Source: Anaerolineae bacterium
GTDB taxonomy: Bacteria; Chloroflexota; Anaerolineae; Caldilineales; Caldilineaceae
DNA length: 64,000 bases
Assembly (NCBI GenBank): GCA_030432295.1
Contig: JAUIHI010000006.1
Coordinates: forward strand, 1 to 64,000
Direction: 5' to 3'
The position numbers and the translations under genes are program-made. This document shows, one piece after another, positions 3,123-14,114 of the stretch (within the stretch, counting starts at the first letter, position 1; each line of letters opens with the position of its first letter). The notes below the pieces were generated by a model. That model saw only the letters and a program-made list of their open reading frames with translations, did no database searches and was not told the origin of the DNA.

Positions 3123-4232
3123 CTACAGCCCCTCTTTCGTCTCGGCGATCAGATGCTGCACCACAGCCTTCAAATCTCCGTCGTTGGCGTCGAAGACCCG
3201 CAACTGGCGGTCGGCGCTGGTTCCCACTTCCAGCATCCGGTGGATCGGCTCGATCTCGGCGGCGATGCCCAGTTCGTCGATCTCCTCGCCCAACATTTCC
3301 AGCAGTTCCCGGATTAAGGCGCGGGCGGGCAGGTCCGTCTTTTTGCCAAAGTCGATGAGCTTGCCGTCCAGCCCATAGCGGGCGGCCCGCCATTTGTTCT
3401 CGGTGATCAAATCCCGGCGGTAGACCCGGAAAGTAATATTGTGCTGGCGCAGTTTCCAGTGCCAGAGGACAATCGCCTGGCAGAGCGCGGCGATGGCGAT
3501 GGCCTCGTCCACCCGGGTGCAGATGTCGCAGGTGCGGAATTCCAGGGTGGGGTAGAGGTGATGGGGGCGCACATCCCACCAGATTTTGCTGGAATCGGGC
3601 ATACAGCCGGTGTTGACCAGCGTGCGGATCAGCCCCTCGTACTCGGCCCGGTTGCGGAAGACATCCGGGATGCCGCTGCGGGGGAAGTCCTCGAAGATCA
3701 CCGCCCGGTAGCTCTTCAGCCCCGTCTTGCGCCCAGCCCAGAAGGGGCTGCTTGTGCTCAGGGCCAACAGATGGGGCAGCATATAACGCACCACATTCAT
3801 TGTGTCGATGGCAAAGTCCGGGTCGTCCAGCCCCACGTGGATGTGCATTCCAAAAATGAGCAGGCGCTGGGCAAGCACTTGCATCTCTTCAAGCACGCCC
3901 CGGTAGCGGGGAAAGGGCGTCACCTGCTGGTCGGCCCAGCGGCTGAATGGGTGGGTGGCCGCGGCTACAATCGCCAGCCCTTTGTCCTCGGCCAGTTTGG
4001 TGATAAAGTGGCGCTGGCGCAGCAGTTCCTCCTTGGCCTGGGCCGGCGTCTCGCAGACCGGTGTGCCCATCTCCACCATCGACTGATGCAACTCCGGTTT
4101 GATCTCCCGTTCGATCATCACCATTTTTCCATCTTCGATGAATTGGGTGATGAAAGAGCGCAGTTCGCCGCTCTCCGGGTCAACCACCTGATATTCTTCT
4201 TCGATGCCAATCGTCAGGCTGGGGCGTTTCAT
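3123..4232 (-). CDS. Carboxylate-amine ligase, GCS2/YbdK family (copy B)
   Basis: This 369-residue protein belongs to the glutamate-cysteine ligase family 2 (COG2170), ATP-dependent enzymes that join a carboxylate to an amine through an acyl phosphate. It opens with the diagnostic [18 protein letters not shown]. It continues with [15 protein letters not shown], the [13 protein letters not shown] block, the metal- and nucleotide-binding MHIHVGLDD, and [19 protein letters not shown]. The length matches E. coli YbdK (about 370). It is the last gene of the minus-strand cluster and its ATG overlaps the stop of copy A by 4 nt, so the two are translationally coupled. The substrates are unknown. Confidence 0.88.
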
Positions 4233-5362
4233 GCCAGGCTCTCCGTTTCTGCAATCAGGTCGTCCACCACTGCGTTCAGGCTCTCGCCACTCTCTCGCCA
4301 GACGGCCAACTGGCGATCTGTGCTGCTGCCCCGCTCCAGCATTGTGTGGATGTGCTCGATCTCGGCCCGGCTGTTTAGACGGTCCATTATCGGCTCCACC
4401 CGCTCCACCAACTCCCGGATCAGAGATTTGACCGGCACTTCCTCTTCAATGCCAAAATCCAATAATTTGCCCTGCAAGCCATAGCGCACGGCCCGCCATT
4501 TGTTCTCGGCAATCAGTGTGCGATCGTAGAGGCGGAAGGACATATTGCGCATGCGCAGATCCACCATCCACGCCACCACAGCCTGGATGAGCGCGGTGAT
4601 GGCCAGGGTGTCTTCCACACTGGGCAGCACATCGCAGATGCGGATTTCCAGGGTGGGGAAGCGGTGGTGGGGGCGGATGTCCCACCAGATTTGGCCCGGC
4701 CCCTGGACGCTGTTGGTGCGGACGAGGGTATCCACATAGCTTTCGTAGTCGGCGTAGCTGTCGAATTCGTTGGGGATACCCGTGCGGGGCAGAGCGTCGA
4801 GGAGCACGGCCCGGTAGCTCTTCAGGCCCGTGTCCTTGCCCAGCCAGAAGGGGCTGCTGTTGGCCAGGCAGAGGATGTGGGGGAGCAGATAGCGCATCCC
4901 ATTCATCACATCCACCGACAATTCCCGGTCTTCGATGCCGATGTGGACGTGCATCCCAAAGGCGAGCAGGCGGCGGGCAATGATCTGCGTATCTTCGATC
5001 AGCGCACGGTAGCGGGAGAGTCCCGGCTGGCGGCCTTCCCGCGCCCAGTGGCTGAAGGGGTGGGTTCCCGCGGCCACCACTTTGAAGCCTTCCCGGCTGG
5101 CCTGTTCCAGCAGTGTAGAGCGGATACGCACCAATTCCGAGCGGGCCTCTTTGATGTCGGCGCAGACCGGCGTGCCCACTTCGATGGAATCGCTGTCGAT
5201 ACGCTGGGCAAAGTCCAGTTCCGGCTGCTTCTCCCGGATCAGCAACTGATCGGACCCCATGGACTGAGTAGCGTAGCCCAGTAGTTCCCGGCTCTGGGGA
5301 TCGATGAACTGGTATTCCTCTTCGATGCCGATGTTAAGGGAGGGAGGTGAATGGTAGGGCAT
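4229..5362 (-). CDS. Carboxylate-amine ligase, GCS2/YbdK family (copy A)
   Basis: This 377-residue paralogue of the next gene is collinear over its full length. Its motifs are [57 protein letters not shown] and [19 protein letters not shown]. All the acidic and histidine residues that bind metal and ATP in this family look present in both copies, so neither is an obvious pseudoenzyme. A tandem pair suggests two successive amide-bond steps or a heteromer. A 23-bp-arm hairpin separates it from the upstream ATP-grasp gene. Confidence 0.88.
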
Positions 5363-9241: not shown

Positions 9242-11116
9242 CTATCCAATCACACTGTGTGAAATTGCAAAGCCACTCTCTGCCCGCACCGGATTCTCGC
9301 CATCCACCACCCAATCCCCGCGACCGCTCTCCCTATCGGCCACCCAAAAGCGGTAGAAATGCTCGCCCGGCGCAAAGCAAAATACGCCATGCCACCAGCC
9401 TTTGCCTGCCTCTTCCAAATATAGACGATTTGGCTGCCAATGGTTGAACGATCCGACCAGACTGACCGACCGGGCCTGGGGCGCATACATTCCCAAATAA
9501 ACGGTTCTATCCGCTTCGCCGATGGGGGCATCGACACTTTCCGAGGAATCTACCGCTACTCTAACCGGAATCCCCAATTTGCGCAAACTGTCGGTGGAAA
9601 TCGCTGTGCCGCTGATGGGCAGCCCGGCCAATGGGCCGCCGTGACGACGCAGGGCCAGGGCCACGGCCCGCCCCGGCTGCAACAGGCCGTGGCCGGTCTG
9701 TTCGTCGGGCAGATGGCGCAGGGGCAGGCTGCTCTCCACCACCAGTTGTTTCAGTTGATAGGGCGTCAGCTTCGGATTCGCTTCCAGCATCTGGGCTGTG
9801 GTGGCGGCCACCAGCGGCGCGGCCACACTCGTGCCGTCCACGTGCTGGGCGTGGCGGTGTACCCATTTGTGGGGATTCATGCGCAGCAGCAGCGCCTCGC
9901 GCACAGCCTCGTCGCTGGCCGTGCGGATGGCCCAGGTCAGCTTCAACACCGAATGCCACTCGTCCAGAATGTGGCGTGCGCCGTCACCGTCGCCATTTTG
10001 TAGGGCTTCCCAGGCCCGGCCCAGCACCCACAGTTCCCGGAAGAGCGGGCTGACCGGCAGAATCGGCCCCGCCAGCCAGACCGCGGGGGCCAGAATTTCC
10101 GGCTTGGGGATGTGCCAGGCGTCCACCTGACTTTGCCCCCAACTGTGATGATAGAGGCGCAGACCGTCCACTTCGCCCGGTCGATCTGCCCGCCAGCGAC
10201 GGTTGGCGTCGTCAATGCCGCCGACGGTCAGCGCGGAGGGGGCCTGGGCTGGAGCCAGCAGCCGCTCCTGGCCGGAGTTGCCAGCGGCCACCACCACCAG
10301 CACCCCCCGCCGGGTCAGCTCCTCCACGGCCAGGCAGAGCGGATTCTCCCACCAGGGCTGGGGATAGTCGCCGCCCACACTCACATTCACCACCCGCACG
10401 CCGTAGCGCTGCCAGTTGTCCTCCCGCAGCAGCCAACGCAACCCGCCCAAAATGTCCTCTTCCGGGATGCTGCCGTTGGGCCGCCCGACTTTGATGGGCA
10501 GCAGCCCGGCTTGGGGTGCATAGCCCCGGTGCAGCCCGCCGCTCAGTTGGCCGTTGCCCGCGGCGATGACCGTCGTCATCTGCCCGTGCCAGGAGTTGCC
10601 CGCGTCGCTCCACAGGCTCGGCGCATCCACACCCATGCCCTGATGTCCTTCGGTCAGATTGACGTACTGGCGGATGCGGTTGGGTCGCTTTTCCAGGGCC
10701 AGACGGATACGGGCTACATCCGTATCAAGCGACGCGATGTCCAGGCTGGGATCGACGGCCTCGCCCAAATCCGGGTGGGGGTAGTAGCCACTGTCCAGAA
10801 AGGCGATTGTCACGCCCCGACCCGTATAGCCGGGGTGGTGGGGCAGGCGCTGGGTCAATCCCAGTAGGCCGTATTCCGATGGGTGATAGTAGGGAAAAGT
10901 CGTGCGGGGGAATGTCTGGGCGTTGAGGGGGCGTTGGGAACGGGTGCGGGCGTGGCGGCGGGCGAAGTTCAGAGCGCAGTCCGGACAGAGACCGTCGCTC
11001 GGCTGCCAGGTCGGATGTTCTTGCTCGATCAGTCGGCGTACAGGCAGGGTGACATTCGTCGTCTTTGCCAGCAGTTCCGGGTGGACCGCGCCGCCGCAGA
11101 GAGGGCAGGACTCCAC
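9242..11116 (-). CDS. Subtilisin-family (S8) serine protease with CBM48-like C-terminus
   Basis: A 624-residue protein starting at GTG 11114-11116. An N-terminal zinc-ribbon-like pair (CPLCGG ... CPDC, residues 4-47) precedes the S8 domain. The catalytic triad is Asp108 (AFLDSGYYPH), His177 (NSWHGQMT) and Ser430 (DGTSVAAP), with oxyanion Asn280 (AAGNSG). There is no signal peptide, so an intracellular role is likely. The last ~90 residues (VYLGMYAPQARSVSLVGSFNHW ... FYRFWVAD) look like an early-set CBM48/AMPK glycogen-binding module, which is rare on subtilases. The GTG overlaps the TAG of the preceding small gene by one base, so the two are coupled. Confidence 0.88.
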   Translation of the reverse strand: MESCPLCGGAVHPELLAKTTNVTLPVRRLIEQEHPTWQPSDGLCPDCALNFARRHARTRSQRPLNAQTFPRTTFPYYHPSEYGLLGLTQRLPHHPGYTGRGVTIAFLDSGYYPHPDLGEAVDPSLDIASLDTDVARIRLALEKRPNRIRQYVNLTEGHQGMGVDAPSLWSDAGNSWHGQMTTVIAAGNGQLSGGLHRGYAPQAGLLPIKVGRPNGSIPEEDILGGLRWLLREDNWQRYGVRVVNVSVGGDYPQPWWENPLCLAVEELTRRGVLVVVAAGNSGQERLLAPAQAPSALTVGGIDDANRRWRADRPGEVDGLRLYHHSWGQSQVDAWHIPKPEILAPAVWLAGPILPVSPLFRELWVLGRAWEALQNGDGDGARHILDEWHSVLKLTWAIRTASDEAVREALLLRMNPHKWVHRHAQHVDGTSVAAPLVAATTAQMLEANPKLTPYQLKQLVVESSLPLRHLPDEQTGHGLLQPGRAVALALRRHGGPLAGLPISGTAISTDSLRKLGIPVRVAVDSSESVDAPIGEADRTVYLGMYAPQARSVSLVGSFNHWQPNRLYLEEAGKGWWHGVFCFAPGEHFYRFWVADRESGRGDWVVDGENPVRAESGFAISHSVIG

Positions 11117-11532: not shown

Positions 11533-11615
11533 AGGGTTGCGAGGGGCGAATTGCAAAATCAACACCCGCAGACCGCCCCTTTTGCCTTTCCTTTTTGCCT
11601 TTTGCCTTTCACAAG

Positions 11616-11711
11616 CGGGAGGGCGTGGGAGTCGAACCCACCGCAGCCGGCTCTGCGCCACCTGCCACTGATTTTGAAGACCAGGGCGCCCACCGGGACA
11701 CATCCCCCCCC
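11616..11711 (-). tRNA. selC: tRNA-Sec (anticodon TCA), selenocysteine
   Basis: On the minus strand a 96-nt tRNA can be folded with the selC hallmarks. The acceptor 5' strand is eight G (11704-11711) opposite GCCCTCCC (11617-11624), 7 of 8 pairing with one G-U, then discriminator G. The D stem has 6 bp (GTGTCC/GGGCGC) with the 4-nt loop CGGT, as in E. coli selC. The anticodon stem is CTGGT/ATCAG with loop CTTCAAA, giving anticodon TCA. A long variable arm contains GCAG/CTGC and GGC/GCC, and the T arm is GTGGG-TTCGACT-CCCAC. CCA is not encoded. It implies UGA decoding as selenocysteine elsewhere in the genome. Confidence 0.88.
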
Positions 11712-11858
11712 ATTCGATCTATTGTAGCGGAGGGGGAAGGGATCGGGGAAATTGTGGATGGTGCATCCGACACTTCTCTTTGCCCCCATCTCTCCCCCGT
11801 GCTATTCTGTGGGAGCAGATTTTGCGCGCACATCACCCAATCACCCGAGGATGCACCC

Positions 11859-14114
11859 ATGGCTTCTGCTGCCACCGATACAGCACCCGCCGAACCGACA
11901 ACCATCGAAAAACTGCGAGGGCTGCGCTGGTCGATTGCCTCCAACTCGGCCAATACCGTCTTTGTACAATACACTTTCTTCGGCTCTATTTTCGTCCTCT
12001 TCCTCAACGAACTGGGGCTGAGCAAAGGACAGATCGGCTTTCTGCTCTCCCTGCTCCCCTTCACTGGGCTGATCTCCATTTTCATCGCGCCGGCGGTAGC
12101 CCGCTTTGGTTACAAACGCACGTATGTCACCGCCTGGGCCGGGCGCACGGCGATCGCCACATTTATGCTGCTCACCCCCTGGGTTGCCAATACCTATGGG
12201 TTGAATGCGACCCTCGTTTTCATCTCTTTTACGGTCGCCGCCTTTTCCCTCGTCCGTTCGATTGGGATGACGGCCAATATGCCCTGGGTGCAGGAATATG
12301 TGCCGGACACAATGCGGGGCAAATATACGGCTACCAACAATACTTTTGCATCGGTCGTCGGCTTTGCCGCGGTCAGTCTCGGCGGTTTTGTGCTGGGACG
12401 CATCGCCGGTCTGCCCGGTTTTGTGGTTCTAATCAGCGTGGGCATTGTGGGTGGGATCGTCTCCACCTGGCTGGCCTCGTTTATCCCCGGCGGCGCGCCC
12501 GTGCCCAACCGCCCGGAACAGAAACGCCAGCGGGATTTGGGCACAGCCCTGCGCGATGGCAATTATATGCGCTATCTGGTCGGCGTGGCTTTGCTGACCC
12601 TGGCAACGGTTCCCCTCGGCTCATTCCTGCCTCTTTATATGCGGGAGGAAGTGGGGTTGCTGCCGGGCAATATCGTCCTGCTTCAGATCGGGACCCTGGC
12701 CGGTGGGCTGGCTACCAGCTTTGCCTGGGGCTGGGCCGCAGACCGCTACGGCAGCAAACCGGTGATGCTCTGGGGGTTGCTCCTACGCATGTCCCTGCCT
12801 TTGCTGTGGATGTTTATGCCCAAAAACTCGCCCATCAGCCTCTACGTGGCCCTGGGCATCGCCCTCTTCCAGGGGCTGGCGGATATGGGCTGGGGCATCG
12901 GCTCGGCCCGGATGCTCTATGTGAGTATTGTGCCCAACGCCAAACGCTCGGACTATATGGCCCTTTACACGGCCTGGACGGGTATCGCCGGTGGCATCAG
13001 CCAACTGGTGGGTGGTCAATTGCTGCAAGCCTCTCAGGGTGTCACAGGACAGTTCTTTTTTGTTTCCCTCAACCCCTACATTCCCCTCTTTGGCCTGGCA
13101 CTGGTGCTGCCCCTGGTCAGCCTGCTGATTATGCGGGCCATCCGTCTGACCGAAAGTCTCGGCATGGGCGAATTTGTGGGTATTTTCCTGCGCGGCAACC
13201 CTTTCCTGGCCATGTCATCGCTTGTCCGTTATCATCTGGCCAAGGACGAGCAATCCACCCTTCTGGTCACAGAACGGTTGGGCCAGACCCGCAGTCGGCT
13301 GGCCGTGGAAGAGCTGCTCGAAGCCCTGCAGGACCCCCGCTTCAATGTGCGCTTCGAGGCGATTATCGCCATCTCCCGGATGCCCGCGGACCCTCGCCTG
13401 ACCGCTGCGCTGGTCGAGATTCTCCACGGCAGCGAACTGGCCCTTTCGGTGGTGGCGGCCTGGGCGCTGGGACGCATCGGCGATCCGTCTGCCCACGACG
13501 CACTGGTGCGGGGGCTGGATTCGGACTTCCGCTCGATTCAGGCCCACAGCGTGCGCGCGTTGGGGTCCCTGGGCAACCCGGATGTGGCGGCTGTGCTGAT
13601 GGAACGACTACAAGGGGAGGACAACCGGGGATTGCAGATGGCCTATGCCTCAGCGCTCGGCCAATTGGGCGCGACAGAGGCTGTGCAGGAACTGCTCGCC
13701 CTTCTGCGGGGAACAGACAATCCCGGCGCACGGCTGGAAGTAGCCCTCGCGGTCGGGCGGTTGGTTGGCAACGAAAACAACTTTGTCCAACTGGCCCGCA
13801 ATGTGCGCTCGGACCCGGGCACAACTCTAGCCCAGGCTGTGCAGGGGTTGAAGCGGCGGCTGAATCGGGGCGACGCCGACGCCGATGCCCTGCGCTCTCT
13901 GCTGGACCGGGAGACAGCGGTTCTCGGCCAGGGCGATATGGAGAGCGGCTCCCGTTCGTTGGGCCAACTCATCCGCCAAATGCCCCTGGAACGTTTCGAC
14001 GCCACTTCCCAGGCCATTCTCGCCGAATGTGCCGACCGTCTGGAAGAGAGCGGCGCAAAGCATATCGAGTACGCGATTTTGGCATTGCATACCCTGGACG
14101 CGGGGTGGAAATAG
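11859..14114 (+). CDS. MFS transporter fused to C-terminal HEAT repeats
   Basis: A 751-residue protein starting at ATG 11859-11861 (MASAATDTAPAEP). The frame is open upstream only through the selC region. The first ~430 residues carry about 12 hydrophobic segments of the major facilitator type, with RFGYKRTYVTAWAGR and DRYGSKPVMLWG as the conserved loop-2/loop-8 motifs. From about residue 450 a soluble domain of HEAT-like helical pairs follows (LLEALQDPRFNVRFEAIIAIS, ALVRGLDSDFRSIQAHSVRALG, LMERLQGEDNRGLQMAYASALG). The HEAT part probably sits in the cytoplasm and binds a partner. The transported substrate is unknown. Confidence 0.85.
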   Translation: MASAATDTAPAEPTTIEKLRGLRWSIASNSANTVFVQYTFFGSIFVLFLNELGLSKGQIGFLLSLLPFTGLISIFIAPAVARFGYKRTYVTAWAGRTAIATFMLLTPWVANTYGLNATLVFISFTVAAFSLVRSIGMTANMPWVQEYVPDTMRGKYTATNNTFASVVGFAAVSLGGFVLGRIAGLPGFVVLISVGIVGGIVSTWLASFIPGGAPVPNRPEQKRQRDLGTALRDGNYMRYLVGVALLTLATVPLGSFLPLYMREEVGLLPGNIVLLQIGTLAGGLATSFAWGWAADRYGSKPVMLWGLLLRMSLPLLWMFMPKNSPISLYVALGIALFQGLADMGWGIGSARMLYVSIVPNAKRSDYMALYTAWTGIAGGISQLVGGQLLQASQGVTGQFFFVSLNPYIPLFGLALVLPLVSLLIMRAIRLTESLGMGEFVGIFLRGNPFLAMSSLVRYHLAKDEQSTLLVTERLGQTRSRLAVEELLEALQDPRFNVRFEAIIAISRMPADPRLTAALVEILHGSELALSVVAAWALGRIGDPSAHDALVRGLDSDFRSIQAHSVRALGSLGNPDVAAVLMERLQGEDNRGLQMAYASALGQLGATEAVQELLALLRGTDNPGARLEVALAVGRLVGNENNFVQLARNVRSDPGTTLAQAVQGLKRRLNRGDADADALRSLLDRETAVLGQGDMESGSRSLGQLIRQMPLERFDATSQAILAECADRLEESGAKHIEYAILALHTLDAGWK

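Follow-up and report, generated by a model that had tools for sequence, protein, structure and literature searches.

Selenocysteine (Sec), the 21st amino acid, is inserted by tRNASec. Bacterial forms of this tRNA usually have eight acceptor and five T-stem positions (8+5), an arrangement that is not strictly defining, since forms with 12 pairs exist (PMC5330540). Such a 12-bp acceptor-T stack is already known from Epsilonproteobacteria, Cloacimonetes, some Clostridiales, Gammaproteobacteria, and Dehalogenimonas (PMC5330540). In the literature on selenocysteine in Caldilinea or Chloroflexota, nothing specific to Caldilineaceae was found.

The window analysed here, a stretch of 64 kb (C47:1-64000), belongs to a Caldilineaceae genome of 6.72 Mb in 61 contigs that is rated 100% complete. 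It contains what we regard, with a probability of about 0.97, as the single functional selC gene of this bacterium, serving UGA decoding by the established bacterial Sec pathway (Table 1); its expression and charging, the recoding, and the addition of CCA are what we infer from this assignment. Following the established pathway, SerRS would charge the tRNASec with serine, SelA would convert the charged tRNA to Sec-tRNASec with selenophosphate from SelD, and SelB would bring Sec-tRNASec to the UGA codons of selenoprotein mRNAs.

Table 1. Features of the selC locus, sel genes, and genes with in-frame UGA (U in motifs); positions without a contig label are those of the window
Feature	Location	Strand	Evidence or remarks
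selC, tRNASec with anticodon UCA	11616-11711	minus	ARAGORN, RF01852, fold, strong matches in 102/120 related genomes
UCA anticodon within loop CTTCAAA	11675-11677	minus	sequence
G8, eighth base of 5' acceptor strand, non-Watson-Crick opposite G at 11624	11704	minus	sequence, fold
G opposite G8, numbered 66	11624	minus	sequence, fold
Uncharacterised small protein, 138 aa	11116-11532	minus	no Pfam match; ~83 nt downstream of tRNASec
Subtilase with CBM48-like C-terminal domain	9242-11116	minus	
MFS transporter fused to C-terminal HEAT repeats	11859-14114	plus	MFS_1 with HEAT_2/HEAT_PBS
selA	C16:235442-236788		578 bits vs curated cut-off 268
selB	C16:89399-91312		333 bits vs curated cut-off 242
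selD	C47:64444-65436 (matched part)		341 bits vs curated cut-off 125; CAGUASK
FdhA	C52		SRAUHAPTVAGL; TIGR01591 738 vs 666
AhpD-like peroxidase-related protein	C32		GCVYURRAH; TIGR01926 118 vs 81.8
2-Cys peroxiredoxin	C9		DFTFVUATE; Pfam match (PF00578) and motif reading
BCP/PrxQ	C53		DDTPGUT; Pfam match (PF00578) and motif reading
Thioredoxin-like protein	C29		FWTYGUINC; Pfam match (PF00578) and motif reading
Prx-like protein	C52		RGKWUSYC; Pfam match (PF00578) and motif reading
SelW-like protein	C11		EYCVQUNYTPRA (CVQU); Pfam match and motif reading

Structure of the tRNASec gene

The initial annotation had proposed a selenocysteine tRNA with anticodon TCA, a long variable arm, and an acceptor of eight positions, and had suggested a Sec-aware tRNA search. 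ARAGORN finds a tRNA-SeC(tca) at 11615-11712 on the minus strand, the sole tRNA of the window, and RF01852 matches 11617-11711 of the same strand with 66.9 bits (E 1.8e-11; gathering score 47), being the only Rfam family to reach its gathering score in the window. Both confirm a bacterial tRNASec, and the score lies 20 bits above the threshold despite the G-G acceptor mismatch, which had been feared to press it below. Across the whole genome this is the one RF01852 match above the cut-off; the next best reaches 42.6 bits, i.e., 24 bits less. The gene had been described as hidden, which is too strong a word: standard tools detect it at once, and most sampled genomes of the class possess a tRNASec.

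The minimum-free-energy fold is the cloverleaf with seven acceptor pairs and two opposed G residues left unpaired at the eighth position, and it reproduces the features originally described: a 6-bp D stem with a 4-nt loop and a long variable arm are present, together with a 5-bp anticodon stem and a 5-bp T stem. Position 11616 corresponds to G73; it is followed by CTT, such that no CCA is encoded. With z -0.89, the fold energy is not unusual for such a G+C-rich sequence; it is the score of the covariance model, together with the genomic setting, that makes the case for tRNASec, not the fold energy alone.

Genes of the Sec pathway and in-frame UGA codons

A search of the genome yielded selA, selB, and selD, all above their curated cut-offs (Table 1); the lack of selB or selD, which would have spoken against the proposed tRNASec, is thus not observed. 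None of the three lies in the window, as had been stated, though selD (likely start 64423, or 64453) begins only ~420 bases beyond its right edge. The sel genes do not share a single operon, with 53 kb lying between selC and selD on C47 and ~145 kb between selA and selB on C16. One in-frame TGA is present in selD (C47:64471), situated at the catalytic residue in the motif MVACAGUASK.

Including SelD, eight genes carry an in-frame TGA at a catalytic or redox-active Cys/Sec position, a number that is a minimum, the genes having been sought family by family. Their UGA motifs are the canonical active sites of the respective families; the identity of the four PF00578 proteins and of the SelW-like protein derives from Pfam matches and motif reading, not from an NCBIfam name. 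A second TGA near the end of the thioredoxin-like gene on C29 is probably the true stop. Most members of the families searched have no in-frame UGA, and no in-frame stop is found in the PF00085 thioredoxins. Concerning SECIS elements, hairpins 3' of three tested UGAs were no stronger than shuffles (z -0.2 to -1.0). When the window was scanned by codon usage for UGA codons that are read through, no convincing selenoprotein gene emerged, the sensitivity of the scan being limited (the upstream coding signal was weak on two of three known positives).

The genome thus has UGA-containing genes of the sort that had been predicted, among them one for formate dehydrogenase, and together with selA, selB, selD and a tRNASec above threshold they support the proposal that the organism would read some UGA codons as selenocysteine. 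For annotation this means that at least eight genes would look truncated, split, or broken if every UGA were read as a stop.

Sec trait among relatives

For comparison, 120 genomes of the same genus, family, and class were considered (source genome counted), with tRNASec defined as an RF01852 match of at least 60 bits and SelB as a match above its cut-off. By these definitions, tRNASec is present in 102 and SelB in 103 genomes, and the two co-occur: 98 have both, four only the tRNA, five only SelB, and 13 neither (Fisher p 1.9e-10, a value that overstates independence since the genomes are related). The tRNASec is also present in each of the six further genomes of the genus. On the genomic criteria tested, the tRNASec gene is real and predicted to be functional; it is also ordinary, and of low interest because the Sec trait is widespread in the class.

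Two of the five genomes with SelB only, G075 and G016, carry a divergent tRNA-SeC according to ARAGORN (loci L106 and L107, respectively), to which RF01852 responds weakly (49-53 bits). The D arm is shortened as drawn by ARAGORN in G075, and the outer acceptor pairs are open in G016 (CAAAGGGC vs GCCTTCCC); these are either real variants or assembly faults. Furthermore, G027, a 99% complete Caldilineaceae genome, has neither tRNASec nor SelB, and two genomes of the same genus (G008 and G030) have both. It is a plausible candidate for a recent loss of Sec decoding (locus L119, G027:C47:54700-56700).

The eighth acceptor pair

In the numbering used here, the eighth acceptor pair is 8-66 and the outer T-stem pair 49-65. 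All 8+5 positions are present in the tRNASec and, one of them being G-G, 12 of 13 are paired. Among 27 tRNASec from other families of the class, a sample of the best-scoring ones in which well-paired molecules may be favoured, 8-66 is G-C in 24, A-U in one, and G-G in two, and 49-65 is G-U in all 27. The 21 tRNASec of Caldilineaceae show G-G at 8-66 in 12 cases distributed over seven genera, C-G in six, and G-A, C-A, and U-G in one each; at 49-65, 17 of them have G-C and four G-U.

G-G at 8-66 is thus real and an inherited trait of the family, not a sign of decay, and some genera have a C-G pair in its place. The adjoining T-stem pair, mostly G-C in Caldilineaceae, is a stronger pair than the G-U of the other families of the class. 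With its changing eighth pair, the family provides a natural experiment, on a small scale, in the demands that SelA and SelB place on the acceptor/T junction.

Gene order around selC

The "protease operon" of the initial annotation is a minus-strand set consisting of the small protein, the subtilase, and a putative esterase. The subtilase combines an N-terminal Cys-rich stretch with a C-terminal domain resembling the CBM48/AMPK-type glycogen-binding domain, which is unusual for a protease. On the other side of selC, the MFS-HEAT protein is most similar (85-91% identity) to proteins from public MAGs that carry the labels Caldilineaceae, Litorilinea, or Chloroflexi; its gene is not a conserved neighbour of tRNASec. 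Elsewhere in the window (3123-5362, minus strand), two adjacent similar ORFs of 369 and 377 aa were judged by eye to be probably paralogous carboxylate-amine ligases (GCS2/YbdK-like).

A homologue of the small protein follows the tRNASec within 200 nt on the same strand in 12 of 20 other Caldilineaceae loci examined, and the arrangement recurs at some loci outside the family but within the class (L026 and L042; by coordinates G059, G075, and G100). It occurs in 65 of the 120 genomes, being conserved in Caldilineaceae and weakly so in other families of the class. A role as a Sec-linked factor was rejected: the protein persists in genomes that lack both tRNASec and SelB (G027, G061, G077, and G109) and lies far from the tRNA in one genus. 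Beside it, no tRNASec remnant was seen in G027, G061, or G077. Conserved order of this kind, with no dependence between the genes, most likely reflects ancestral synteny.

Alternative explanations

The unpaired eighth acceptor position could be taken as the mark of lost function in a decaying tRNASec or pseudogene. This is very improbable: the same mismatch is common to more than half of the family members compared, every other arm of the tRNA is intact, and selA, selB, and selD exist in the genome along with the eight UGA-containing genes. Confusion with tRNA-Ser or another tRNA with a long variable arm would find some footing in the fact that RF01852 also matches other places of the genome more weakly, at 31-43 bits; these matches are below threshold and presumably represent other tRNAs. 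The distance of 24 bits to the best of these, the UCA anticodon, the 8-position acceptor, and the 6-bp D stem make such a confusion negligible; neither a non-UCA anticodon nor a 7-position acceptor was seen.

A UCA anticodon would also suit a suppressor tRNA that inserts some other amino acid at UGA codons genome-wide. However, the in-frame UGAs seen in the families searched fall on the catalytic or redox-active residues of known selenoprotein families, most members of which have none, and SelA, SelB, and SelD are present. UGA at ordinary positions of many conserved genes, the pattern that would favour a suppressor, was not seen in these families; a suppressor is therefore hardly credible. Functional selC remains the preferred reading. 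An extension of it, that Caldilineaceae evolved a further independent departure from the canonical 13-bp stack, comprising the unpaired G-G at the acceptor/T junction, the change from G-U to G-C in the outer T-stem pair, and matching changes in SelA or SelB, appears unlikely.

Comparison with known tRNASec

The tRNA agrees with bacterial tRNASec (selC, RF01852) in having a UCA anticodon, G73, a D stem of 6 bp closing a 4-nt loop, a long variable arm, eight acceptor positions, and a T stem of 5 bp. It is an ordinary representative of a well-studied system, apart from a minor lineage-specific peculiarity of the acceptor stem. Unlike in the usual RF01852 tRNASec, the eighth acceptor position is G-G, leaving 7+5 pairs and one mismatch at the acceptor/T junction. 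Being one pair below the canonical 13, it resembles the tRNASec with a 12-bp acceptor-T stack (PMC5330540), whose existence makes the loss of one pair compatible with function. In those, however, the acceptor is one position shorter, usually with a bulged nucleotide; the present tRNA has its full set of nucleotides and differs by a mismatch in one pair. Departures from the 8+5 bacterial fold have been described before, and this mismatch adds a minor one to them.
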